64,000 nucleotides of DNA from Lysinibacillus louembei (GTDB lineage: Bacteria > Bacillota > Bacilli > Bacillales_A > Planococcaceae): positions 1,728,001-1,792,000 of the forward strand of contig NZ_CP137624.1 in NCBI RefSeq assembly GCF_033880585.1, written 5' to 3'. The position numbers and the translations under genes are program-made. Every line of letters starts with the position of its first letter. Positions within the stretch are counted from its first letter, which is position 1. Below the pieces are notes generated by a model. That model saw only the letters and a list, made by a program, of their open reading frames with translations. It was not told the origin of the DNA and did not search any database. Positions 8,618 to 64,000 of the stretch are shown here, one piece after another.

Positions 8618-8638
8618 ATCGTGATGTAACTATAAGCA

Positions 8639-8722
8639 AGCGCCAATAAAATTACTAAAATCGCCAATAAAACACGAAAAAGCGCTAATAGAATCACCAA
8701 AAGCGCCAATAAAACTACAGGG
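8639..8722. repeat. Four-unit 21-bp tandem repeat with core CGCCAATAAAA
   Basis: The core CGC(C/T)AATA(A/G)AA begins at 8641, 8662, 8683 and 8704, an exact 21-bp period. The units differ mainly in the 3' half. The array sits between the convergent yunC and RNase J genes, 22 bp after the yunC stop. A GC-rich hairpin (8719-8753) follows. The core is close to that of the 20-bp arrays at 44.3 and 54.2 kb. Confidence 0.75.
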
Positions 8723-29439: not shown

Positions 29440-30330
29440 ATGAGCGTGCAAACTGAAAAGGTACAAACGCAAGCAAGAAGTAATCCACGAGTAGAAGCTT
29501 TTAAAACCTTCTCAAAAAGATTGCTGAAAAATAAAGCCGCAGTAGTCGGAGGCTTAATTATTTTGTTCATCATAATAGTTGGCATAATCGGTCCGCTATT
29601 TATGAAAACAGATCCGAATGCACAAGATTTAATAAATAAACTCCAACCACCTTCAAAAGAGCACTGGTTTGGAACAGATAACTTCGGACGAGATATTTTT
29701 ACTCGTATCATTTTCGGTACACAGCTAACATTGAAAGTTGGATTTTTATCCGTATTTATTGGAGGCGTTGCGGGTGTCGTATTAGGAATTGTAGCAGGCT
29801 ACTACGGTGGCATGGTTGATACGATCACAATGCGTATTATGGATGTTTTATTAGCTTTCCCAGGTATTTTATTAGCATTAGCTATCGTATCTGTATTAGG
29901 TGGTAGTTTAACAAATGTAATTATTGCGGTAGGTATTTTCTCTGTACCAGCATTTGCTCGAATTGTTCGAGGGTCTACGCTACAGGTGAAAAAATTGGAA
30001 TATATTGATGCTGTGAAGGCGCTCGGTGCGAGTGATGGACGTATTATTTTCCTACATATTTTACCGAATATTATGTCACCGATTATCGTTCAAGCAACGA
30101 TGCGTATTGCAACAGCTATTTTAACTGCCTCTGGCTTAGCTTTCTTAGGTCTAGGTGCACAACCGCCAGCTCCAGAATGGGGTGCAATGTTAAACGATGG
30201 ACGTACTTATATGCATAATGCAAGCCATATGGTAATGTTCCCAGGAATGATGATTATTATTGTTGTATTAGCATTTAATATATTCGGAGATGGTCTACGT
30301 GATGCACTAGATCCAAAAATGAAGCAATAA
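29440..30330 (+). CDS. Peptide ABC transporter permease, DppC/OppC type
   Basis: The 296-residue inner-membrane permease has an N-terminal OppC_N-like region (FSKRLLKNKAAVVGGLIIL, PFGTDNFGRDIF-type segment EHWFGTDNFGRDIFTRI) and a BPD_transp_1 domain with about five further TMs. The EAA-loop motif is EYIDAVKALGASDGRIIFLHILPN. ATG 29440 is preferred, nine bases after AAAGG; ATG 29431 touches the ribosome site. It forms an operon with the next three genes. In most such operons the B-type permease comes first, so the C-B-D-F order is somewhat unusual. Confidence 0.92.
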   Translation: MSVQTEKVQTQARSNPRVEAFKTFSKRLLKNKAAVVGGLIILFIIIVGIIGPLFMKTDPNAQDLINKLQPPSKEHWFGTDNFGRDIFTRIIFGTQLTLKVGFLSVFIGGVAGVVLGIVAGYYGGMVDTITMRIMDVLLAFPGILLALAIVSVLGGSLTNVIIAVGIFSVPAFARIVRGSTLQVKKLEYIDAVKALGASDGRIIFLHILPNIMSPIIVQATMRIATAILTASGLAFLGLGAQPPAPEWGAMLNDGRTYMHNASHMVMFPGMMIIIVVLAFNIFGDGLRDALDPKMKQ

Positions 30331-44316: not shown

Positions 44317-44376
44317 TTGTAAATAAAGTGAGGGAGTCACAAATAAAATGAGCAACCCGCAAATAAATTAAGGAGC
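44317..44376. repeat. Three-unit 20-bp tandem repeat, same family as the 54.2-kb array
   Basis: Units 44317-44336, 44337-44356 and 44357-44376 share the core (C/T)AAATAAA at a 20-bp period. The middle unit (TCACAAATAAAATGAGCAAC) differs from unit 14 of the 54-kb array at one of 20 bases. The array follows the fru terminator by 23 bp. Confidence 0.75.
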
Positions 44377-44422: not shown

Positions 44423-45988
44423 TCAAATATTTTTAGATTGCTTCTCTTTCATCATCGTTTTTATTCTTTTTTTATCCGCATACATACTGAAATCGGCAAC
44501 ATGGAATAGCTCCTCAAATGATTTCCCCTCATACGGTGCTAGACTGTAGCCAATGCTTGGAGAAACTTCAAATGATATATTTTCTTCATGTGTAAAGGGC
44601 TGTGCTTTAAAAGCTTGTCGTATCGTATCTACATAATGTAATAGCTCTTCCTCATGATCTAAAGTTTGTAGAAATACTGTAAATTCATCACCGCCAAGGC
44701 GAGCAACTTTATGTGGCGCAGGGATACATAATGTTAAAATGTTGGCTACATGTTGTAAAACGAAGTCACCAATTTGATGTCCATATGTATCATTGATTTG
44801 CTTAAAATAGTTTAAATCTAGCAAAATAAGCGCATTTTGTTGCGTTGGGTTAAGCATTAAGTGCTGTGTAACATATTCAACAAAATAAGCACGGTTATAT
44901 ATGCCTGTTAATGAGTCATGGTAGGCTAAATGCTTAATTAAATTTTCCCGTTCAAATTCCGCCGTAATTTCTCTCCACATAATATAATAATATTTTTCAA
45001 TACCGAGCGTTATAAAAGTAGCGTCAATGGATACTTTCAATATACTTCCGTCACGACTTTTTAAATCAATAATATAATTATGGATGAGCTGCTTTTCTCG
45101 AATGGTGGTAATGAGCATATGGATTTGCTGCTGGTTAAATTCGCTACGAGCGGCAACGAGTAAATTTTCCTCACAAGCTTCTTGAGAGGCTAAAAAACGA
45201 CGAGCACGATCATTAATTTCGATAATATTTAGCTTACAATCAACAACTGTAATAGCAACTGGCATTAGCTCAAAAACAAGACGATAACGTTGACCTATCG
45301 AGGGCATTAAATCGAATTTTCGAATACCAATTGTTAACAGGACAACAGTGAAGAAGTTTAACAATAACATAGGAAGTGGAATCAATTTATTCATGCCTAA
45401 GCTTAAAACAGCAATATAGCCTAAGACAATGCATGTATAACTAGTCGCTAAAAAAAGCAATAGCTGTTTGCTAATTGAAATGGTTGTTTTAAAAAAACCA
45501 TAAATAAACATAAATAACGTGATGCAAATGGTAAATGTAGTTAAGCTATGCGCCCAAATATTATAGCTGTGTGCGATTCGATACGTCCAAATACCAATGC
45601 GTTCATAGCTTTGCTGCACAGGTGCTATTGGTGAAAGACTGATAAATAGTTGAACGAGTAATGGTGTATAGAGCATATAATATAACGCTTTACGAAAATG
45701 AATTTTGGCATTTTTAGCAACAAGAGTATAAATTAAATGTAACGTTCCAACCATTGCTAGCACGATAAAAGGACCAACAATTGCTTTGGAAATCAATGGG
45801 TTATATTTTAGTGCGATAAGCTGACGGGCAAATTCCCCTGAAAAAGCGAAAATTAGTACACCTGTTATAACACATAGTAATCGATTTTCAAGCAATGTCA
45901 TATTTTTCGTAAATAAAATAACAAGGATAATAAATAAAATAAATATAGGTATGCCGTATACAAGCAAATATATATGAAGTGGCTGCAT
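44423..45988 (-). CDS. 7TM-PAS-GGDEF diguanylate cyclase
   Basis: The 521-residue membrane protein has about seven hydrophobic segments (~1-220) of the type found at the N-terminus of some histidine kinases. A PAS-like sensor region follows (~230-345, FELMPVAITVVDCKLNIIEINDRARRFLA) and then a GGDEF domain (~350-515) with the intact motif ARLGGDEFTVFL. It probably makes cyclic di-GMP in response to a membrane or cytoplasmic signal. ATG 45988 has AGGAGTG upstream. A paralogue lies just upstream on the same strand, so this pair arose by tandem duplication. Confidence 0.9.
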   Translation of the reverse strand: MQPLHIYLLVYGIPIFILFIILVILFTKNMTLLENRLLCVITGVLIFAFSGEFARQLIALKYNPLISKAIVGPFIVLAMVGTLHLIYTLVAKNAKIHFRKALYYMLYTPLLVQLFISLSPIAPVQQSYERIGIWTYRIAHSYNIWAHSLTTFTICITLFMFIYGFFKTTISISKQLLLFLATSYTCIVLGYIAVLSLGMNKLIPLPMLLLNFFTVVLLTIGIRKFDLMPSIGQRYRLVFELMPVAITVVDCKLNIIEINDRARRFLASQEACEENLLVAARSEFNQQQIHMLITTIREKQLIHNYIIDLKSRDGSILKVSIDATFITLGIEKYYYIMWREITAEFERENLIKHLAYHDSLTGIYNRAYFVEYVTQHLMLNPTQQNALILLDLNYFKQINDTYGHQIGDFVLQHVANILTLCIPAPHKVARLGGDEFTVFLQTLDHEEELLHYVDTIRQAFKAQPFTHEENISFEVSPSIGYSLAPYEGKSFEELFHVADFSMYADKKRIKTMMKEKQSKNI

Positions 45989-46011
45989 TAAAAACACTCC
46001 TATTACAGTAT

Positions 46012-47566
46012 TTAATTTTTTTCTGTTAATAGAGCCTGTTGTTGCTTAATAGCTGCTTTATTAATATACATATTGACATGGCTCACATGTAATAATTGCT
46101 CTAGTGTATCGCCATCTACTGCATATATGCTATGACCAATACTAGGAGAAATAGTTATTTGGATGTCTTCGAAATGGAAAATATCTGCTTCACAACGCTG
46201 CTGAATCGCCGCTATAGCTAGCTCCAGCTCTTCTATGCTCTGCAAATTTTGCAAAAAGAGTACGTATTCATCTCCGCCAAGCCTAGCAACAATGTGTGGA
46301 TCCTTAAAAAGAAATTGTAAAATAGAAGCCATATGCTGCAGCACTAAATCACCAACGGAATGACCATAGTTATCATTAATTTGTTTAAAGGAATTTAAAT
46401 CTATTAAAATTAATGCATGAAGATCTGTAGATGTCGATTGATTAATAAATGCCTCTACGTGCTGTACAAAATAGGCACGATTATGCAAACCTGTTAAGGC
46501 ATCATGATAAGCTAAATACTGTGCAAGTAATTCCTTTTCAGTATCATTCGTTATATCGCGCCACATAATATAGTAGTATTCATCAGAGCCTACAGAAATG
46601 ATTGTTGCTTCAAATACTAAAATCATCGTTTGCAATGTTGAAGGATTTTCAAAATCTAATATAAAATTACTAAGCCCTTTTGAGTCCTTCAAAGCTTTCA
46701 TTAGCAATATACCTTGTTTTTGATTATGTATTGTATGCAATAAATCAAGTAAGCTTCGACTTGACGTGGCATGAAACGTGTTGCGTGCATGATGATTATA
46801 TTCAAGCACTTCATACTCGTTTGAAAGCAAAATAATAGCAGTTGGTGACACTTCAAACATTGTTTGATAGCGAGATGTCAAGCTTGGGATAAGCTCGAAT
46901 TTCGCAATACCTACAATAAAAATAATGCTAGTCATAACCATAAATAAAAGGATAGAAAGTGCTGGGAAATAATCTTTTAAAAAAAGTGTAAAGATAAATG
47001 CTGTGAAAAATAAGCTATAGGCGATAAGGGAAAATCGAAAGGCATTTTTTTCCGTGTATCGATTGAGCGTGAAAAATACCAAAGGCTGATAAAATAATGG
47101 CAACCATAATATGTACACTAATAATGCCAAAAACCCATATTTTACGAAAAAGAGTATTTGGAATAATCCGAATATTTAGGACGCTAAAATCTTCTATAGA
47201 TGGACTAAAGCCTAAAAAAAGTACGAGCACTTGGCACAATATAGGAATATAAAAAAGCGTAACGATAAACGAATGTGATTGTAAATGACAATACTTTACT
47301 AATAGTACATACATTAAATGTAAAAGTGTAGATAGTGAGATTAATAGACATAACCCCATTAAGATTGAAAAAGAGAAAGGGATATATTTAGAGAGCAATG
47401 TATGTCGTAAAAGCCCTTCTAACAGCACAAAGCAAAAGCTAATTAATGCGATACTTAGCAATCTTGTTTCTACCATTTTGGAATTATTAAGTAATAATTT
47501 AACAATGATAAATGTTAAAATAAAAATAGGGATGATAAATAATAAATAAATAGCTGGATTAGTCAT
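46012..47566 (-). pseudogene. Second 7TM-PAS-GGDEF protein, frameshifted in a 7-A run
   Basis: Two overlapping frames align end to end with the neighbouring 521-residue paralogue. The first (from 47566) supplies the 7TM part up to IHGKK, and the second supplies the last TMs, PAS-like region and GGDEF domain. They join if one A is removed from the run of seven (Ts at 47045-47051 on the plus strand), giving about 517 residues. The active-site motif is GGDEY rather than GGDEF (ARLGGDEYVLFL). The indel may be a sequencing error, a homopolymer slippage mutation or a phase-variable site. If real, only a truncated membrane part would be made from the first start. Confidence 0.8.
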
Positions 47567-52597: not shown

Positions 52598-53398
52598 ATG
52601 GATCTTTCCTCGGTGGTAGGTATAGTTCTAGCATTCGTTTCATTATTGACAGGTATGGTACTAAAAGGGGTAGGATTAGGTGCATTGGCGAATCCAGCTG
52701 CCATTTTAATCATTATTTTTGGTACTATTTCTGCAGTAGTAATCGCCTTTCCTATGAAGGAATTAAAGCGAGTGCCAAAATTATTTAAAGTATTGTTTAA
52801 AGAAACAAAACTAGCTAATGATATTGACATTATTAAAATGTTTTCACAATGGGCAGATTTAGCACGTCGTGAAGGCTTGTTAGCACTTGAAAGCAAGGCT
52901 GCAGAAATTGAAGATCCATTTTTAAAAAATGGCTTAACACTTGCGATAGATGGTCAAAATGCAGACTATATTCGCGATGTATTATCTGAAGAGGTTGAAG
53001 CAATGGAAGATCGTCATACGAGCGGAGCTTTAATTTTTACACAAGCTGGTACATATGCACCTACGCTAGGGGTATTAGGAGCCGTTATTGGTTTAATTGC
53101 CGCTTTAACTGATTTAAGTGATATTGATAAATTAGGACATGCCATTTCTGCTGCCTTCGTTGCAACATTACTAGGTATTTTCACAGGGTATGTATTATGG
53201 CATCCATTTGCTAATAAGCTGAAGCGAAAATCAGCAGTAGAAGCTAAGCAAAAGCGCATGATGATTGAAGGGATTCTATCTGTTCTTGAAGGGGAAGCAC
53301 CACGTGTCATTGAGCAAAAACTTGCTTCTTACTTATCTTTAGAAGAACGCAAGCAAATCATGGAAAGCGGGGCGGGTGGCCTTGGCAAAGAAGCATAA
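52598..53398 (+). CDS. motA: Flagellar motor stator protein MotA
   Basis: The ~266-residue stator subunit has four TM segments; with MotB it forms the proton channel that drives flagellar rotation. It closely matches B. subtilis MotA as I recall it: ALANPAAILIIIFGTISAVVIAFP, the cytoplasmic loop LARREGLLALE, EVEAMEDRH, and the channel region AGTYAPTLGVLGAVIGLIAAL and LLGIFTGYVLWHPFANKLKRKS. ATG 52598 starts MDLSSVVGIV, as homologues do, with ATGGGGG upstream. It overlaps motB by 17 bp. Confidence 0.95.
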   Translation: MDLSSVVGIVLAFVSLLTGMVLKGVGLGALANPAAILIIIFGTISAVVIAFPMKELKRVPKLFKVLFKETKLANDIDIIKMFSQWADLARREGLLALESKAAEIEDPFLKNGLTLAIDGQNADYIRDVLSEEVEAMEDRHTSGALIFTQAGTYAPTLGVLGAVIGLIAALTDLSDIDKLGHAISAAFVATLLGIFTGYVLWHPFANKLKRKSAVEAKQKRMMIEGILSVLEGEAPRVIEQKLASYLSLEERKQIMESGAGGLGKEA

Positions 53399-54152
53399 AA
53401 AACATAAAAAGCATGAAGAGCATGTTGATGAATCATGGTTAGTTCCATATGCAGACATATTGACATTGTTATTAGCTCTGTTTATCGTACTGTTTGCTTC
53501 TAGTTCAGTAGATCAAGAGAAGCTAAACAAAATGTCTGATGTATTCAGTCAAATATTCGATGGTGGCGTTGGGGTTATGGAAAATCCATCAGCAGTACCA
53601 GACCCAAATGCAACAAGTGATGAAATTACAGACCAAACTATGAAGTATATAAGAGACCAAGAAGAGCTACAAGAAACAGTAAAACGAATTGAGGAATTTA
53701 TCGCAGTTAATGAGCTAGAGGAGCAGTTTGAAGTTGTTAAAATAGATGACGGCGGCGTCTTAATCATTATTCGCGATAGTATTTTATTTGATCCAGGGCG
53801 CGCAGATATTAAGCCAGAGTACGAAACAATTGCACTGGAATTATCAAATATATTGCAATCTGATATACCTCGTAGAATACTGATTCGAGGACATACAGAT
53901 AATGTGCCAATGAACAATGCACAATTCCATTCAAACTGGGATTTATCGGCAATGCGAGCATCTAGATTTTTAGATAGCATTCTTGAAAATAATCCTAGTT
54001 TAGACCCCGGCTATTTCAGCGCAATAGGTGAAGGTGAGTACAAGCCAATTGCTGATAATGGAACAGCAGAAGGACGCGCCCAAAACCGCCGTGTTGAAGT
54101 ATTAATTCAGCCATTAGTAGCCGAAGATGGCAGCGAAATTGAAGAACCATAA
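53382..54152 (+). CDS. motB: Flagellar motor stator protein MotB
   Basis: The ~256-residue stator subunit has a Lys/His-rich N-terminus (MAKKHKKHKKHEEHVDESW), one TM with the proton-carrying Asp25 in VPYADILTLLLALF, and an OmpA-like peptidoglycan-binding domain (~135-250, RGHTDN, NRRVEV). TTG 53382 is preferred because homologues begin with MA followed by a basic stretch; GTG 53376 is possible. It overlaps motA, so the two are coupled. Asp25 with the VPYADILT context fits an H+-type MotB; I cannot exclude a Na+-type MotS by eye. Confidence 0.94.
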   Translation: MAKKHKKHKKHEEHVDESWLVPYADILTLLLALFIVLFASSSVDQEKLNKMSDVFSQIFDGGVGVMENPSAVPDPNATSDEITDQTMKYIRDQEELQETVKRIEEFIAVNELEEQFEVVKIDDGGVLIIIRDSILFDPGRADIKPEYETIALELSNILQSDIPRRILIRGHTDNVPMNNAQFHSNWDLSAMRASRFLDSILENNPSLDPGYFSAIGEGEYKPIADNGTAEGRAQNRRVEVLIQPLVAEDGSEIEEP

Positions 54153-54158
54153 AATAAG

Positions 54159-54192
54159 AACCGCTTAAAGGGTACACTTTAAGCGGTTTTTT
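54159..54192 (+). terminator. Intrinsic terminator of motAB
   Basis: AACCGCTTAAAG (54159-54170) pairs perfectly with CTTTAAGCGGTT (54177-54188) around a 6-base loop, followed by TTTT. The tandem array begins 16 bp further on. Confidence 0.88.
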
Positions 54193-54207
54193 GCTGTAAA
54201 GAGAGAA

Positions 54208-54507
54208 TCGCAAATATATTTGGGAAGTCGCAAATAAAACGGGAAAGTCGCAAATATATCAGAGAAGTCGCAAATAAAATGGGAAACTCGCAAATATATC
54301 GGAGAAGTCGCAAATAAAAGAGGAAACTCGCAAATATATCGGAGAAGTCGCAAATAAAAGAGGAAATTCGCAAATATATCGGAGAAGTCGCAAATAAAAC
54401 GGGAAATTCGCAAATATATCAGAGAAGCCGCAAATAAAATGGGAAACTCGCAAATATATCAGAGAAGTCACAAATAAACTGAGCAACCAGCAAATAAAAC
54501 GAAGGCT
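54208..54507. repeat. Fifteen-unit, 300-bp tandem array of 20-bp repeats, two alternating subtypes
   Basis: Fifteen consecutive units of exactly 20 bp (54208-54507, no indel) share CGCAAATA. Odd units 1-13 read CGCAAATATAT followed mostly by C(A/G)GAGAAG; even units 2-14 read CGCAAATAAAA or similar followed by (G/A)GGAAA-type ends, and unit 15 also carries the AAAA subtype. The higher-order unit is therefore a 40-bp dimer. Units 1, 14 and 15 are the most diverged, as is usual at the edges of an array. There are no spacers, so it is not a CRISPR. It fills the gap between the motB terminator and the psuK promoter; 54508-54557 holds nothing else I can assign. Confidence 0.9.
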
Positions 54508-54616: not shown

Positions 54617-55702
54617 ATGAACGACAAGGAGCAACTTGTCCTACAATCGATTCGAGAAAACCCATATTTATCACAGCAAGACATGGCGGAAAAATTAAAT
54701 ATGTCACGACCCGCACTCGCTAATATTATTTCAGGCTTAATTAAAAAAGGCGAAATTATTGGGCGGGCATATGTTCTACCAGAGAAGCAGGCTATTCTTA
54801 CGATTGGTGGGGCTAATGTTGATAGAAAGCTTCATATTACAAATAAAGTTCAGCTAGCAACATCCAATCCTGTAACGGCAAGTGAAAGTGTCGGTGGCGT
54901 TGCACGCAATATTGCAGAAAATCTCGGACGTTTAGGGAATCAAGTGAAGCTGTTGACAACACTTGGGCAAGATGCTGATGCACAAATGATTGAGCAAGCT
55001 AGCCGTGCTTTTATTGAGCTAGATGTAATAGAAAAATTAGAAGCAGAGCAAACGGGCTCTTATACAGCAGTATTAGACAAGGATGGTGAGCTCGTTATTG
55101 CATTAGCTAATATGGCTATTTACGATGCTTTAACACCAAAATTATTGGAGAAGCATACGGCAACTTTAGTAAATGCTGCAGCTATTGTCATTGATTTAAA
55201 CTGTCCAAAGGAGACTGTTGTGTATGTACAGCAGGTTGCAAAGGAGCGCAATATTCCGTTAGTAATCGTCCCAGTTTCTTCACCTAAAATGAACCGAATG
55301 CCCGATGATTTGCAGGGGGTTAGCTATTTTATCTGCAATCGAGATGAGGCAGAAACATACTTGAATATGACTTTAGATGGTGAGGCAAGCTATAAAGAAG
55401 CTGTAAGGGCGTTGCTACAAAAAGGAGTGGCACATGTAGTGTTAACTTTAGGTGAGCAAGGCGTAATAGTTGGAGATAACGAAGGATTACAAAATTACGC
55501 TGCCTACGCCATAGAAGATGTGAAGGATGTAACGGGGGCAGGAGACGCCTTTGTTAGTGCGACTTTACATGGTGTGATGCAAGGCGATACTTTACATGAG
55601 GCAGTGCAATTTGCACTATATCATGCGGCAAAAACATTGCAGGCAAACACGACAGTACGACCAGTAACACAAAACGAATATAATAATTGGAGGAATTCAT
55701 AA
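54617..55702 (+). CDS. psuK: Pseudouridine kinase, HTH-PfkB fusion
   Basis: The 361-residue protein has an N-terminal winged-helix/HTH of ~60 residues ([30 protein letters not shown]), then a PfkB-family kinase domain (~64-355) with [28 protein letters not shown] and the catalytic [15 protein letters not shown]. It phosphorylates pseudouridine to pseudouridine-5'-phosphate for the next enzyme, psuG. AGGGGGATTGCG precedes ATG 54617. Its stop overlaps the psuG ATG by one base (TAATG). The fused HTH suggests autoregulation. Confidence 0.9.
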
Positions 55703-56654: not shown

Positions 56655-57652
56655 AGAGGCTGGGACAAAACCCACCTCTAAATTAAAAAGCCGGTGAAAT
56701 TTTACCATCAGTAAAATTTCACCGGCTTTCAATTTTTTCATAAAAAATAAGGATCACTTCTGATAAAATTAAGTCACCATAACCAAATTATACAGAAAGA
56801 AGGATCCTTATGTTTAAAGATTATAACATGAATCAACTTGTTTTACCGTTGGATATCGAAATAAAATTACAAGAAAATGATATCGCCTTCTCTATTCATC
56901 AATTAGTGGAAAGTATCCCCTCAGAAGCTTTCGCTCCTTTTCTGCAACAAACCGGCTGTCCAGCCTATCACCCACGTATGATGCTCAAGCTCATTTTATG
57001 TGGCTATACCCAATCAGCCTTCTCGGGTCGCCGAATTGAAGACCTGACGAAAGATAGCCTACGTATGATGTGGCTGGCACAAGGCTATCAACCAAGTTAC
57101 CGTACCATCAATCGTTTCCGTGTTCACCCATTGACAAAGGAATTGCTTCGTCAATGTTTCGTGCAATTCCGTTGTCAACTAGTGAAGGAAGACCTGATTG
57201 CGCAAGAAGCCATTTTTATTGACGGCACGAAAATCGAAGCAAATGCGAACAAATTCACCTTTGTGTGGAAACGTTCGATTGAAAAATATGAAGCGAGTTT
57301 GGTGGAAAAATCAAACCAGCTGTATGAAGAATTACTGCACCAACAAATTATACCAGCTATCGAACGAGAAGTGGAAACGCAGCTGTCCATCACTGAATTA
57401 AAGCAGGTGGCAGAAAAATTAGAAGAAGTCGTAGCCGACTATACAGAAAGAATCGAGCAATCCGAAAAGGCACAAGAGCGAAAGCAGCTACGAAGTGAAC
57501 GAAAAACACCGAAACAACAATGGAAGCAAGTAAACGAGTGGATCACCCGCAAACAGAAATATGAACGAGATTTTGCGATTTTCGGCAAACGGAATAGCTA
57601 TGCCAAAACAGACCCTGATGCAACTTTTATGCGCATGAAGGATGACTACATG
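56655..57652 (+). mobile_element. IS1182-family element, right part deleted
   Basis: The left end AGAGGCTGGGACAAAACCCA is of the form seen at the ends of IS1182/IS1272-type elements. A long hairpin and the transposase gene follow. At about 57652 the sequence leaves the transposase and joins a hairpin that serves the adjacent response regulator, so the right ~40% of the element and its right end are missing. Confidence 0.7.
56687..56729. terminator. Long hairpin in the left end of the IS1182 remnant
   Basis: A 19-bp perfect stem (AAAGCCGGTGAAATTTTAC at 56687-56705 pairs with 56711-56729) and a 5-base loop are followed by CAATTTTTTC. It can terminate psuKG and also block outside transcription into the transposase. 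Confidence 0.75.
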
Positions 57653-57673
57653 GGGCTATCCGATTCCGGATAG
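56810..57673 (+). pseudogene. IS1182-family transposase, truncated
   Basis: The N-terminal 280 residues match IS1182/IS1272 transposases: NMNQLVLPLDIEI, YHPRMMLKLILCGYTQSAFSGRRIEDL, LRMMWLAQGYQPSYRTINRFRV and AIFIDGTKIEANANKFTFVWK, ending at KTDPDATFMRMKDDYM. The usual continuation, with the rest of the catalytic domain and its Glu, is lost; the last six residues (GLSDSG) come from unrelated DNA. Full members have about 450-550 residues, so this copy should be inactive. Confidence 0.85.
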
Positions 57674-58398: not shown

Positions 58399-61300
58399 TC
58401 ACTCCTTTCGATTAAAGTGAAAAGGAAATTGAATTTCGACAGTGGTGCCTTGATTTACTATGCTATTAATTGTCATAGAGGCACGCTCATACTTCTTTAA
58501 ACGCTTAGCAATATTGCGGAGACCCACACTTTGGCTATGCTTCATATCGTCTGCAAGAATTTGCTGTAATTGCTTTTGCTCAATACCAATGCCATTATCA
58601 CTAATTTTAAAAATAATTAGTTGCTGTTGTTTTTCAATTGAGATAGAGAGTTTAGCGTCTTCCTTCTTTGTTTTAAGCCCATGGATTAATGCATTTTCAA
58701 CTAAAGGCTGTAGCAAAAGTGGAGGAATCACACAATTTGCTGCTGTTTCATTCATTTGTATATCAAATTGCAGCTGTGATGGGAACCTTGTTTGATGAAT
58801 ATTTACATATGCTTGAACAAGGTCTAATTCTTTAGTGAGTGGCACAAGACTATTTGTATTCTCAAAAGAAAAGCTACTGCGTAAAAATATTGCAAAATTT
58901 GTAATCATCGCTCGTGCCTGCTCCAAATCTAAATAGCTCAGCGATAAAATCGAATTGAGCACATTATAAACAAAATGCGGTTTAATTTGTGCTTGTAAAA
59001 ATGCTGTTTCCATTGTAACTGCTGCTTCCGCAGAATCCTTTAATAAAATTAAATTGCGTACACGTGTTTTGAGCTCGATGATATCAAGTGGCTTATGCAA
59101 GAAATCGTTTGCTCCTGACTGAAGGCTGCCACCATATCCTCTGGACGAATAGCAGCTGTTAACATTAAAATAGGTAATTCTGCAGCAGTGTAACTTTGAC
59201 GTACTTGCTGGCAAATCTCATAGCCTGAAATATTTGGCATCATAATATCTAAAATTAATAAATCAATATTAGGATGCTGCTCTAATTGCTCAAAAACTTG
59301 TAGACCGCTATTAATTGCGATGATAGAATAGTTTTCTGGTTCTAAAATATCAATTAACACCTTCAAATTCACTGCATCATCATCTACAATCATAATTTTT
59401 TTAGCATTAGCCTTTTCTACGATATATGGGAAAGATAAAAAAGGCTTTTGGTGAGCTGATTTCAACATAATTGATGGTGCTTCACTAATTGCCTGTGCCT
59501 TTAAAAGTTTTACAGAGAAAGTCGTTCCTTGCTTAAGAACAGAAGTAACAGCAATTTGCCCTCCTTGTCGCTCCACAAGCTCCTTTGTAATATATAAACC
59601 TAAGCCTGTCCCACCAATTGAATGCTCGGACTGCTGAAAGGCATTGAAAACATTTTTTAACTCCTCCTGTGGCATACCACAGCCTGTATCTTGAATGCCT
59701 ATTACTAAAAAGGCATCATCCTCATAGCAAGTAATCTCGATTTGCCCTTCATCCGTATACTTTATTGCATTATGAATTAAGTTATATAAAATTTGGCGAA
59801 GTCTATCCTCGTCTGCTTGAACAAAGGTGCCCCTTGTAATATGATTGTTGATTTTAATATTTTTCGTGACCGTATAAGAGAGTACTTCAACTGTCATATG
59901 CGTCACCGCAAATAAATCAACAGAGGTGATGCGTAAAGCTAATTCATTGTCCTTAAGCTTTGAAAAATCAAGGATATCGTTGACTAAATAGGAAAGGCGA
60001 TTCGCAATATTAAAAATAAGCGTTATTTTTTCTTCTTGCTCAGGTGCATTTGGCGCAGTTAACATCGATTGTGAAATCCCCATAATACCATGCAAAGGTG
60101 TTCGAAACTCATGCGATGTTTTTGCTAAAAATTCATCCTTCAATTGATCAACCTGAAGCAGTGCCTCAGTCAGCTTGCCTTTTTCTAAATAAGAATCCGC
60201 AAAGCGATGTGAAATATATAAGGAAAGCATTGTTAAACAAATAAATGGTAGCAATGGTGGTAAGGCACTCAGCTCAAGATTAATGTTTGTGTTTAAAGTA
60301 GCCACGATAAAGTAAAGTAAAATGGCTAGCGAGCTTAGTAATAAGTACATAATGCCTGTAGCCCGACGATATATTGCGATAATTTGTACATAGAAAATAT
60401 AAACGATATTGGCAAATACATAAATGGAATTGATATTTTGCAATTGTGAATTAATAGCTGTAGGTAACATCCCTATAAAAATGAAAAGAATACCTATGAT
60501 GCATAAGCCCTTCACAATTTGGCGATTCATATATGGCAGTAACGCACGATAGAAATATAACAATATAAAGAGACCTACAGAGACGCTTGAAATCATCTGT
60601 ATTTTCTGAAATGGCGCATAGGGCATATCAATAAATGCCAGTAAAAGCTTCTCACCATGTGTAAGCGTATAAAGTGCACTAGAAAAACAAAATAGTGCAA
60701 AGTAAAGCTGCTCAATCCCTAATTTCGAATAAAGATAAGAGCCAAAAAAGTAGATAAACATCGTTAAAAATGCTGCCAGTGTAATTAAATCATAAAAAAT
60801 TGCTCCTTCACGCAGCTTAGTAATACTAGACTGATCTCCAAGGAAAATCGAACTAATAATACCGCCACCTGGAGCATAATCAAAATTCGCCACATGAACA
60901 ATTAAATCAAGCTCCTGTGTATCAGGCGAAAAATAAGCAACGTAGGGCGTATTATGCGGTACATAGCTACGCCCATCCACGGGCTCACCGCTATTGCCAA
61001 TACGTTTACCATTGATATACAAGGCGTTTGACATGCGAATTGTATTCGTTTTAATGCCTAAAATTTCTTCATAGTCATCTATTAAAATTTTCAATCGATA
61101 TGTACCACTTGCAAAGGCAGGTAACGGCTTTTCATCTACAGTATATTTCACCCAAGGAGCAGGAACGTCCACTATATAGCTTTGATATGTATCAAATGAC
61201 GAACTATCAACTAATTGATTTGGGATGAATGCCCATTCTCCGTCTAATTGCACAGGAGCATTATTCGAAAATGTATAGTGCCGTAAATCCATCACCCCAT

Positions 61301-61562: not shown

Positions 61563-64000
61563 ATGATAAAGAAATGGGGTAGCATGTTCATCATTGCAAT
61601 GTTAATTTGGTCGCAATTGGAATTGATATCTACTAAAGCTGCTAGTGATGGATTCACAACAATACTGAATGCAGATGATACATTAACGATAACGGGCTGG
61701 GAGGGCGTCTTTCCAACTGAGGGGTTAGAAATCCCTAGTACATTAACCTATGGCGGTGTTGAAAAAACAGTAACGATAATTGGAGAGCAAGCATTTTTGC
61801 TAAAAGAAGTGAAAAGTGTAACAATTCCATCCACTGTTAAAAAGATAGGGAAGCATGCTTTTTCTAGTAGCAAATTAACGGAATTAAATTTTGAGCAAAA
61901 TTCGGAGTTAGAAGAAATAGCGAATACAGCCTTTATGAACAATGAGCTAGTCACTTTAACAATTCCATCTTCTGTTCAAAAGATAGGTAATCATGCTTTT
62001 GCAAATAATAAAGTAACATCGGTTAATTTTGAAGCATCGTCTAATTTATTGGAAATAGGAAATGAAGCTTTCGTAAATTATTTAATGGAAAATGGAAATC
62101 AAATAACGAATATTACGATTCCTAAAAGTGTAAAAAATATAGGTAACTTCGCTTTTTCCGGAAATAAACTAATGACATTGATGTTTGAACAAGGTAGCCA
62201 GCTTGAAAATATAGGAAGTGGTGCATTTGGACATAATCAGTTAGAAAGTATTTCGCTTCCATCTAGTCTAGAAGCAATAAGTAATAACGCATTTCAATTT
62301 AATATATTAAAGAAGATTGAATTTGCAGAGCCAGCAACTCCACCTATAACAGTTGGTCCTGCCGCCTTTAAATTCCAAAGCGGTATTGTAGAAACACTTT
62401 GGTATTTAAATGGTAATGAATCAACTCCATGGGACCAAGAAATAGTAACAACGGCCTTTACAGCTTACGCTGAGCCGCAAGCACTTCCACCTGCCCCAAC
62501 AAGTATAATGGCAGTTGCTGGGGATAGTATGGCAACAGTAAGCTTCACGTCAACTACCGATAGTGCAAGTGTGGTTACAGGAGATAGTGCAAGCGTGATT
62601 ACAGGCTATAAAGTAAAGGTTTATGTAAATGGACAGGAACAATCTACCTTGCGAGCGACAGGTACACAAAGTCCAATTATAGTGACAGGTTTGACGAATG
62701 GTACAACTTATACTTTTAAAGTAGTAGCGACGAGTGGTCTAATAGATAGCTTGGACTCAGAGATATCAAATGCAGTTACACCAACAGCGCCAGCAACGGT
62801 ACCATCCGCACCAACTATCCACAGTGTATCACCATTATTTGGGTCTGCGATAGTAAACTTCTATCCTGCGACAAGTAATGGAGGAAGTGTCATTACAGGT
62901 TACAAGGTTAAGGTTTATGAAGCTGGTGTAGAGAAGCCAGCATTAGAAACACCAACAACGGAAACTATACCAAATATAGTAAACCTATTAACGGTGGTCG
63001 TGCCAAATTTAACAATTGGACAATCCTATACTTTTAAGGTGGTAGCAACAAATGACGTAGGTGATAGCGAGGAGTCAGCAGAATCGAATCCTCCTATTAT
63101 TCCAACGGCGCCAATCATTATACCGACAATACCATCTGCCCCAACAAATATAACAGCGTTGGCAGGGAATGGACAAGCAAGCGTAAGCTTTGTGGCACCT
63201 ATAAGCATAGGAAGTCCGATTTTAGGTTATAAAGTGAAAGTTCTTGAGGCAGGTGTAGAGAATCCTGCTTTACAAACAATCGGGACAATGAGCCCAATTA
63301 TAGTAACAGGTTTAACAAATGGCATAACTTATACATTTAAAGTCGTAGCATCGAACAGTGTAGGTGATAGTGTAGATTCATTAGAATCTAATGCGGTGAC
63401 ACCTGGTGTAGATACTTATATGGTTACATTCCAAACAAATGGTGGTAGTTATATAGCGCCAGAATTCATAGCACACGGCGAAGGCATTACAGCTCCACCA
63501 GCTCCAACAAGATCAGGCTACACATTTGCAGGCTGGTATAAGGATAGCACATTACAAACAGCTTGGAATTTTGCAACAGATAAAGTAACGGAAAATACAA
63601 CACTTTATGCGAAATGGACTGCGATGCCAACGACAAACCCACCAGTGGTCACATCGCCATCCGGGTCAAATTCAACACCATCTACAACAACTGAAATTAG
63701 AGTGGATGTCGTAGATGCAAGCAATCCCGATGCAGTGCTTGTCCAAACAGTCATTACACGTGAAACGAGCAATGGTATCGTCAAAGATACAGTTAACTTT
63801 ACTTCTGCAAATGCAAGAGAAGCAATTGAAAAACTAGCAAATCAACAAAACAAGCAATCACGTATGGTTATTCCAGACGAGCAACAACAGGTAAGTGAAA
63901 CAAATATTAGTATTGGCAGAGGAGCGGCTGAATTACTAACAACAGCTGGAACAGGCTTAGGCATTGATATGGAGACAGTGAAGTTTGATATTCCGGCAAC
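61563..64000 (+). CDS. Large multidomain surface protein: BspA-type LRRs, fibronectin III, InlB B-repeat (partial)
   Basis: The frame is open from ATG 61563 to the end of the window (over 810 residues, C-terminus not seen). A signal peptide (residues ~1-26) is followed by BspA-type leucine-rich repeats (~30-255; five or six units with IPSSVxKIGNHAFxxNKLxxL spacing), then three fibronectin-III-like domains (~300-620, recurring TGYKVKVYE and GLTNGTTYTFKVVATN), and a Listeria-Bacteroides (InlB B) repeat (~620-690, VTFQTNGGSY, FAGWYKDSTLQTAWNF). The tail is Thr/Ser/Pro-rich. Such proteins mediate adhesion or cell-surface contacts. An AGAGG site precedes the ATG. It is divergent from sensor kinase 3. 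Confidence 0.85.
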   Translation, partial: MIKKWGSMFIIAMLIWSQLELISTKAASDGFTTILNADDTLTITGWEGVFPTEGLEIPSTLTYGGVEKTVTIIGEQAFLLKEVKSVTIPSTVKKIGKHAFSSSKLTELNFEQNSELEEIANTAFMNNELVTLTIPSSVQKIGNHAFANNKVTSVNFEASSNLLEIGNEAFVNYLMENGNQITNITIPKSVKNIGNFAFSGNKLMTLMFEQGSQLENIGSGAFGHNQLESISLPSSLEAISNNAFQFNILKKIEFAEPATPPITVGPAAFKFQSGIVETLWYLNGNESTPWDQEIVTTAFTAYAEPQALPPAPTSIMAVAGDSMATVSFTSTTDSASVVTGDSASVITGYKVKVYVNGQEQSTLRATGTQSPIIVTGLTNGTTYTFKVVATSGLIDSLDSEISNAVTPTAPATVPSAPTIHSVSPLFGSAIVNFYPATSNGGSVITGYKVKVYEAGVEKPALETPTTETIPNIVNLLTVVVPNLTIGQSYTFKVVATNDVGDSEESAESNPPIIPTAPIIIPTIPSAPTNITALAGNGQASVSFVAPISIGSPILGYKVKVLEAGVENPALQTIGTMSPIIVTGLTNGITYTFKVVASNSVGDSVDSLESNAVTPGVDTYMVTFQTNGGSYIAPEFIAHGEGITAPPAPTRSGYTFAGWYKDSTLQTAWNFATDKVTENTTLYAKWTAMPTTNPPVVTSPSGSNSTPSTTTEIRVDVVDASNPDAVLVQTVITRETSNGIVKDTVNFTSANAREAIEKLANQQNKQSRMVIPDEQQQVSETNISIGRGAAELLTTAGTGLGIDMETVKFDIPA

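Follow-up and report, generated by a model that had tools for sequence, protein, structure and literature searches.

Several described systems of short bacterial repeats share properties with the arrays analyzed here. Plasmid iterons are direct repeats of approximately 20 bp whose spacing is near two helical turns; a protein protomer binds each repeat, and the initiator gene lies nearby in the origin. The BIME/REP elements of enterobacteria are intergenic, occur in convergent gaps and at the 3' ends of genes, and sometimes form series with alternating subtypes; the REP units themselves are palindromic and alternate in orientation. The polar motifs KOPS and SRS are over-represented towards dif and are oriented by replichore. 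Minisatellites (VNTR loci) are tandem repeats whose copy number differs between near relatives, and in CRISPR loci, repeats of approximately 23-50 bp are separated by unique spacers that are similarly long. The STAR elements of Staphylococcus have a 14-bp GC-rich motif, T(G/A/T)TGTTG(G/T)GGCCC(C/A), successive motifs being 40 bp or more apart (PMC3532100).

The array described here is located at positions 54208-54507 of a 64,000-nucleotide stretch, herein referred to as the window, which represents positions 1728001-1792000 of the source genome (G000, a Metasolibacillus genome; 3,960,254 bp, one contig). Together with its dispersed relatives, it resembles the STAR elements in being an interspersed intergenic direct repeat of Firmicutes with a constant short motif, intervening sequence, and strain-variable copy number (PMC3532100). 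It differs from them in its core of approximately 10 bp (CGCNAATANA), its spacer of 10-11 bp, its pitch of 20 or 21 bp, and its consensus, as well as in its mostly unrelated spacers and, in Metasolibacillus, its leading-strand polarity.

The arrays share with BIME/REP an intergenic location, in convergent gaps and at the 3' ends of genes, and in some cases the alternation of subtypes. In contrast to BIME/REP, the units are direct; no dyad symmetry is visible by eye in the 20-bp unit, in agreement with the sequence-only reading of the window made earlier, and the RNA of the 54208-54507 array folds no better than shuffled sequences (z = 0.48). The direct repeats at a pitch of about two turns are shared with iterons, but the arrays occupy 22 dispersed chromosomal loci, the 54208-54507 array is flanked by a motB-like gene and a PfkB gene rather than by an initiator gene, and searches of plasmid and phage collections returned no match. 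As with KOPS and SRS, the orientation follows the leading strand and switches at ori and dif (22 of 22 arrays in G000, with a weaker pattern in other genera), but these arrays are tandem, pitch-locked, limited to few loci, and not enriched towards the terminus. They are tandem and copy-number-variable between near relatives like minisatellites, but the same core and pitch recur at many loci in several species with unrelated spacers. CRISPR had been dismissed from the outset, and 20-bp units with spacers of 10-11 bp do not have CRISPR repeat and spacer dimensions. Among the paper titles listed in literature searches, none describes these repeats. Dispersed short repeats in bacteria are often filed as "function unknown."

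The 54208-54507 array and its neighbors

The array (+ strand) consists of 15 units of 20 bp in which the subtypes CGCAAATATAT and CGCAAATAAAA alternate, forming a 40-bp dimer. This organization, with alternation over 14 units, had been proposed from the letters and was confirmed both on the sequence and by Tandem Repeats Finder, which reported positions 54208-54496 with a period of 40, 7.2 copies, 91% matches, 0% indels, and a score of 424. The ATAT-type and AAA-type units take turns across units 1-14, and the last two units share the AAA type. The core is exactly CGCAAATA in 13 of the 15 units, the variants being CACAAATA in unit 14 and AGCAAATA in unit 15. The description of the edge units as decayed holds only in part: in the near relative L031, the ACTGAGCAAC variant seen in unit 14 occurs as an ordinary unit inside the array, so part of the apparent decay is standing unit variation. 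Allowing one mismatch, CGCAAATAWAW matched the window 30 times, versus a mean of 16.7 and a maximum of 27 over 100 shuffles; 13 of the 16 exact matches fall inside the array.

Both neighboring genes have the same direction as the array. Upstream is the motB-like gene, encoding MotB_plug and OmpA domains (53376-54152, + strand). On its 3' side, an intrinsic-terminator-like hairpin, ACCGCTTAAAG...CTTTAAGCGGTTTTTT, was read from the sequence at 54160-54195 (+ strand), and approximately 15 nt separate its T-run from the array start. Downstream is the gene for a PfkB-family kinase with an N-terminal winged helix-turn-helix (54617-55702, + strand). An antisense ORF of 82 aa without a family match (54165-54413, - strand) runs through the array; it is a by-product of the unit having a stop codon in the sense direction only.

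Two other arrays were found in the window, both on the same strand as the first. An array of four 21-bp units (CGCYAATARAA) lies between convergent genes at 8638-8714 (+ strand), and a short array with two clear units at a 20-bp pitch follows an intrinsic-terminator-like hairpin at 44338-44368 (+ strand).

Several other features of the window were observed. A hybrid histidine-kinase-like sequence at 58399-61295 and a GGDEF-type gene at 46012-47566 each extend over two overlapping ORFs, possibly due to frameshifts (by eye), and an unbroken ORF similar to the split GGDEF-type gene adjoins it at 44423-45997. An apparently shortened transposase-like ORF, which we take to be IS1182-like, is located at 56810-57673. 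A 24-bp tandem repeat in two copies was found at 62559-62605.

Distribution, core, and pitch of the dispersed arrays

In total, 22 arrays were found in G000, three of them within the window and the other 19 spread over 18 further stretches, a count in which arrays beyond 2.8 Mb made of other unit types alone could be missed. These arrays are of two kinds, with 20-bp CGCAAATAWA units and 21-bp CGCYAATARA units. The loose pattern AATANA-N9-14-GCNAATANA had 76 forward and 173 reverse matches in G000 versus 21 and 10 for the reversed-pattern control, and three tighter patterns had 7/22, 17/11, and 19/82 forward/reverse matches versus none for their controls. Scattered single matches of the loose pattern among those listed (to 2.80 Mb) were set aside as chance, including five on the + strand at 0.08, 0.67, 0.68, 0.77, and 0.78 Mb, where the - strand is leading, and four at 2.26-2.80 Mb. 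The counts also leave out a two-core match within a gene at window position 29847, the in-gene matches L060, L070, and L100:1696, and pattern matches in L095 and L105-L108 that were unconfirmed by the stricter detector.

The nearest named relative, a Metasolibacillus MAG (L031) whose kinase is 99% identical, has an array at the same place as 54208-54507; no array was found at this locus in L032 and L033. Absence elsewhere, or a single occurrence, had been named beforehand as counting against the sequence-only reading; neither applies, given the corresponding array of L031 and the dispersed family. Of the 121 genomes of the bacterial family, 24 contain one or more exact pairs of GCAAATAWA cores, some of these pairs being located within genes. 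A pattern search at the order level, covering periods of 18-20 only and thus leaving out 21-bp arrays, found matches in 21 of 261 genomes. The other genera of the family with arrays are g8, g14, and g18. In a species group of g8 (L112-L116, L132, L133, L135, and L136), a common 5' leader, approximately GTCGAAnwwTGnTGAA, precedes the first unit and often lies directly behind a terminator T-run.

The core of approximately 10 bp is repeated directly, as CGC[A/C]AATAAA in Metasolibacillus and mostly as CGCAAA[T/C]AAA in other genera, and a weaker conserved patch is located a few bases ahead of the next core. Several known motifs (the NusG pause motif TTNTTT, the elemental pause motif, the DnaA box, Chi, and SRS) were compared with the core by eye, and none fits all of its variants. 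Interpreting the antisense strand as Rho/rut sequence appeared, also by eye, to fit the Metasolibacillus arrays and not those of the G046 type.

The pitch is nearly constant. A CCAATA-led pattern with periods of 18-23 allowed gave 29 pairs in G000, all at 20 or 21 bp. Successive relaxed-core gaps in Metasolibacillus arrays with at least three units (gaps of 10-30 bp considered) measure 20 or 21 bp in 331 of 340 cases. In 58 arrays from other genera, the same is true of 211 of the 220 intervals accepted (18-23 and 40-42 bp), and six of the remaining nine are double steps. The spacing of direct repeats at a helical pitch, characteristic of iterons, was thus found in both groups. The first 13 loci, 12 from other genera and one from Metasolibacillus G004, had gaps of 20 bp (25 times), 21 bp (24), 42 bp (2), and longer or odd lengths (4). 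With 19-21 bp allowed, single pitches were observed in G046 (23 of 23 matches at 21 bp) and G111 (10 of 10 at 20 bp); the two pitches are mixed in G159, G164, G169, and G170, and three arrays of G001 alternate between them.

B-DNA has 10.5 bp per turn, so a 20-bp pitch rotates by about 34 degrees per unit. The proposal that all cores face one side of the DNA is therefore only nearly true for 20-bp arrays, and 21-bp and mixed 20/21-bp arrays fit it better. Strict alternation of subtypes did not extend to the family as a whole: the T/C alternation across 27 arrays had p = 0.24, and the 20/21 alternation across 19 arrays had p = 0.03 with loci that are not independent. The alternation in the 54208-54507 array may mirror a dimeric step of 40 or 41 bp.

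Spacers in the arrays of other genera are mostly unrelated to one another. For the 21-bp kind in Metasolibacillus (25 units), CGCYAATARA and the flanking A's are constant, and none of positions 12-15 (counting from 0) exceeds 0.20 bit. Comparison of flanks revealed arrays at orthologous places in different species. In 25 orthologous array pairs, identity was 0.913 for cores (2182 positions), 0.556 for spacers (1843), and 0.666 for flanks (8213), with the register set from one side and with pairs that share loci and are thus non-independent. By unit position (from 0), identity in these pairs was 0.94-0.98 at positions 1-5 and 7-8, 0.39-0.49 at positions 11-15, and 0.69-0.79 at positions 16-18. 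Differences in the close pair L133/L136 affect 0 of 50 core positions versus 7 of 41 spacer positions (p = 0.003), and those in L139/L140 affect 1 of 60 versus 26 of 50, both counted where cores were recognized on both sides. Alignment gap runs in the array parts (2195 columns) comprised 12 of 1-2 bases and none of 3-7 bases, versus 29 and 14, respectively, in the flanks (3924 columns).

These comparisons suggest that the core and the pitch are under selection and that the intervening letters drift like unconstrained sequence. The pattern expected of a phased binding array, with the core kept, the spacer free, and the spacing fixed, was thus observed, but in loci found by a core search: the loci of other genera were detected via core pairs at fixed short spacings, so ascertainment accounts for part of what is seen in their core and pitch. 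The comparison of orthologous loci lessens this bias and does not remove it, since both members of a pair had to hold an array; shared loci and core-based searches both inflate confidence in the footprint.

In the 20-bp arrays, the copy number varies as well. The locus of 54208-54507 has 15 units in the window and 28 in L031, and four further loci compared between G000 and G002, classed as the same species, have 5 versus 16, 19 versus 15, 22 versus 23, and 23 versus 14 cores. The difference between strains that defines VNTR loci was thus found at 54208-54507 and at all four further loci. Whole units including spacers are mutual copies in the 20-bp arrays of G000, and such copies were not seen in the 21-bp arrays or in most arrays of other genera. 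The differing copy numbers at the same loci in near relatives show that expansion, which had been suggested for the 54208-54507 array, is real in the 20-bp Metasolibacillus arrays. The long arrays look like an expansion on top of an older short form, and the copy number itself looks unconstrained. In L077:11035-11364, two adjacent arrays each lie behind a similar terminator-like hairpin, as if a segment had been duplicated.

Strand polarity and gene context

The dnaA gene of G000 is located at 1.0097 Mb, and dif, which we take to be the site at 2.9221 Mb, has two mismatches from the Bacillus consensus. All 8 arrays between them are on the + strand and all 14 outside are on the - strand, so the motif is on the leading strand in 22 of 22 cases; the same is true for all 157 listed of the 158 tighter-pattern matches in this genome. 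In G001 and G003, 20 regions were examined, five of which held no array by the stricter detector. At all confirmed loci (15 of 15 and 2 of 2, respectively), the motif lies on the strand whose GC skew is positive, the skew being only 0.014 for L092. Thus, the motif is on the leading strand at 39 of 39 loci in three Metasolibacillus genomes, the arrays of G002 and G004 being left out of the polarity counts. Genes of at least 150 aa are leading in 134 of 182 cases in the sampled stretches of G000 and in 91 of 114 cases in G001; the polarity exceeds this bias (p = 4e-5 at 0.76; p = 0.001 for G000 alone), with orthologous loci included. In convergent gaps, where the direction of the genes favors neither strand, 15 of 15 Metasolibacillus arrays, several of them classed by eye, have the motif on the leading strand.

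Seven genomes of other genera in which dnaA was located have 25 of 29 loci leading, with the terminus taken as the antipode of dnaA, some loci orthologous, and contig C3 of G164, of unassigned replichore, left out: G159 5/5, G151 2/2, G170 7/8, G113 3/3, G164 2/3, G038 3/3, and G046 3/5. Against an assumed gene bias of 70%, this excess is weak (p = 0.04). In draft genomes of g8 (L084-L086 and L131-L150), the GC skew of 8-20 kb stretches places 15 of 23 loci on the leading strand, the lagging ones being L085, L086, L131, L135, L137, L143, L145, and L150. The polarity is therefore exceptionless in the examined Metasolibacillus arrays and at most a tendency elsewhere.

Arrays are preferentially located in convergent gaps and avoid divergent ones. 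In g8, convergent gaps account for 23 of 46 gaps with an array versus 51 of 235 others (p = 0.0002), and divergent gaps for 3 of 46 versus 67 of 235 (p = 0.001). The corresponding numbers for Metasolibacillus are 10 of 30 versus 29 of 175 (p = 0.04) and 1 of 30 versus 44 of 175 (p = 0.007). These gap classes rest on crude gene calls; L129 and L130 are outside the set, and the long G000 arrays under antisense ORFs fell outside the classes and were classed by eye.

A terminator-like site was found at most 150 nt upstream of 35 of the 53 g8 arrays, as a raw count, and in 26 of the 53 the T-run ends at most 20 nt from the first detected core. In Metasolibacillus, such a site was found within 150 nt upstream of 13 of the 44 detected arrays, within 20 nt in five of these 13, and the other 31 arrays have none within 150 nt. 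Some 21-bp arrays begin directly behind a stop codon. With these starts and the 31 arrays, a post-terminator role cannot be universal. In L052:5080-5160, array sequence itself makes up an intrinsic-terminator-like hairpin, which consists of the final 21-bp unit and an inverted copy behind it (GCGCCAATAG...TTATTGGCGCTTTTTT). The array in L040:4888-4959 overlaps the end of the upstream ORF, and the TAG of a core is the stop codon of this ORF.

Proposed role and alternative explanations

From these sequence patterns, we favor, with slightly better than even confidence, the explanation that the arrays are phased docking sites for a putative oligomeric DNA-binding protein, acting as a boundary beyond gene 3' ends and forming a dispersed family partly inherited at fixed places. 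One protomer of a putative sequence-specific protein would bind each core, and the protomers would touch their neighbors at a fixed step of two turns, so that a polar nucleoprotein patch would form just past gene 3' ends. The most likely job of such a patch would be that of a boundary or roadblock against run-on transcription, especially head-on, and of a separator of convergent units. The 20-bp arrays of Metasolibacillus would have been further lengthened by slippage, often of the 40-bp dimer, to tens of units. The 20-bp pitch, being not exactly helical, is a point against the arrays binding protein in this manner, as are the copy numbers that differ between near relatives, the empty locus in L032 and L033, and, outside Metasolibacillus, a polarity that does not clearly exceed gene bias. 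A broader version, that of a lineage-specific chromosome-architecture system, is judged rather unlikely. Here the putative protein would polymerize on 20/21-bp arrays at dozens of gene 3' ends, oriented with replication in Metasolibacillus. The resulting polar boundaries would stand between the replication fork and convergent transcription units, and the core and pitch would have co-evolved with the protein between lineages.

Phased binding and a neutral minisatellite had both been left open before this analysis. In the latter case, slippage and unequal exchange would make and homogenize functionless arrays that persist where they are harmless, behind terminators and in convergent gaps. The unit counts that differ at shared loci (15 versus 28 between the window and L031, and the four G000/G002 loci), the whole dimers shared within 20-bp arrays, and the empty locus in L032 and L033 are consistent with this explanation, and promoter avoidance and convergent preference are also expected of tolerated neutral repeats. 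Expansion is indeed real. However, recent slippage cannot have produced the short arrays whose spacers are mostly unrelated, and yet these have the same cores and a pitch of 20 or 21 bp over many loci; homogenization would copy the spacers as well, and the orientation follows the leading strand at all 39 Metasolibacillus loci. The retention of core and pitch, and not of spacers, across species and genera strengthens phased binding, and a purely neutral origin appears rather unlikely. A polar motif of replication or segregation, guiding a translocase, a repair nuclease, or a fork-associated factor like KOPS/SRS or Chi, would account for the 22 of 22 leading arrays in G000 with the switch between dnaA and dif. 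It would also account for arrays that are directed against both flanking genes and still lead: L050, L082, and L130 as judged from the position of dnaA, with a disagreeing local skew for L130 (+0.019), L084 as judged from local skew, and, less surely because the flanking ORFs are doubtful, L116 and L124. On the other hand, part of the bias is expected from the 134 of 182 leading genes, and no dif enrichment was found: 18 of the 22 G000 arrays are 0.45-1.14 Mb from dnaA, and the tighter patterns list none at 2.14-2.92 Mb in this genome. In addition, KOPS, SRS, and Chi are single short motifs rather than phased arrays, and the loci of other genera are lagging in 4 of 29 cases by dnaA and 8 of 23 by local skew. 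We regard such a function as improbable.

A role at the RNA level, in which the transcribed array would bind an RNA-binding protein or tune termination in the 3' untranslated region, agrees with the same-strand gaps, where the array follows the direction of both neighbors in 17 of 19 cases in Metasolibacillus (of the two exceptions, L044 is only apparent and stems from an antisense ORF) and in 16 of 20 in g8. The arrays that begin right behind a stop codon and the terminator hairpin in L052 point in the same direction. Nevertheless, many arrays start past a terminator, where little RNA is expected, and some are antisense to both neighbors; array RNA folds at the level of shuffles, and the nine Rfam matches, at E-values up to 1 in 50-58 kb, include none at the gathering score. 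A fixed pitch of 20/21 nt also has no evident reason in single-stranded RNA, and this role is judged highly improbable. Repetitive proteins encoded on the antisense strand, which is open over arrays for up to 222 aa (L044 and L046), are scarcely credible: the openness is due to TAA in the sense core only, the spacers drift freely, and the arrays of other genera are mostly 50-130 bp long. For the three antisense ORFs searched against Pfam and NCBIfam, no family passed the cut-off, the sole weak Pfam match being PAH (18 bits, below the cut-off of 21.3).

Evolution can be read here as a mutagenesis experiment, in which the core and the 20/21-bp step survive at the same loci while the letters between them are replaced, and this pattern makes the putative protein-DNA system directly testable. 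If the docking-site explanation is true, a class of direction-bearing chromosome elements located at 3' ends would be added to the promoter-centered picture. The long copy-number-variable arrays could double as typing markers.

Six stretches of viral contigs matched the core pairs, which are located inside predicted ORFs in L155, L157, and L158 and outside them in L156, L159, and L160. These matches are probably unrelated to the family, no host link being seen. In the metagenomic viral contig L156, three CGCAAA-type units at 21 bp are located in a short gap (2649-2700).
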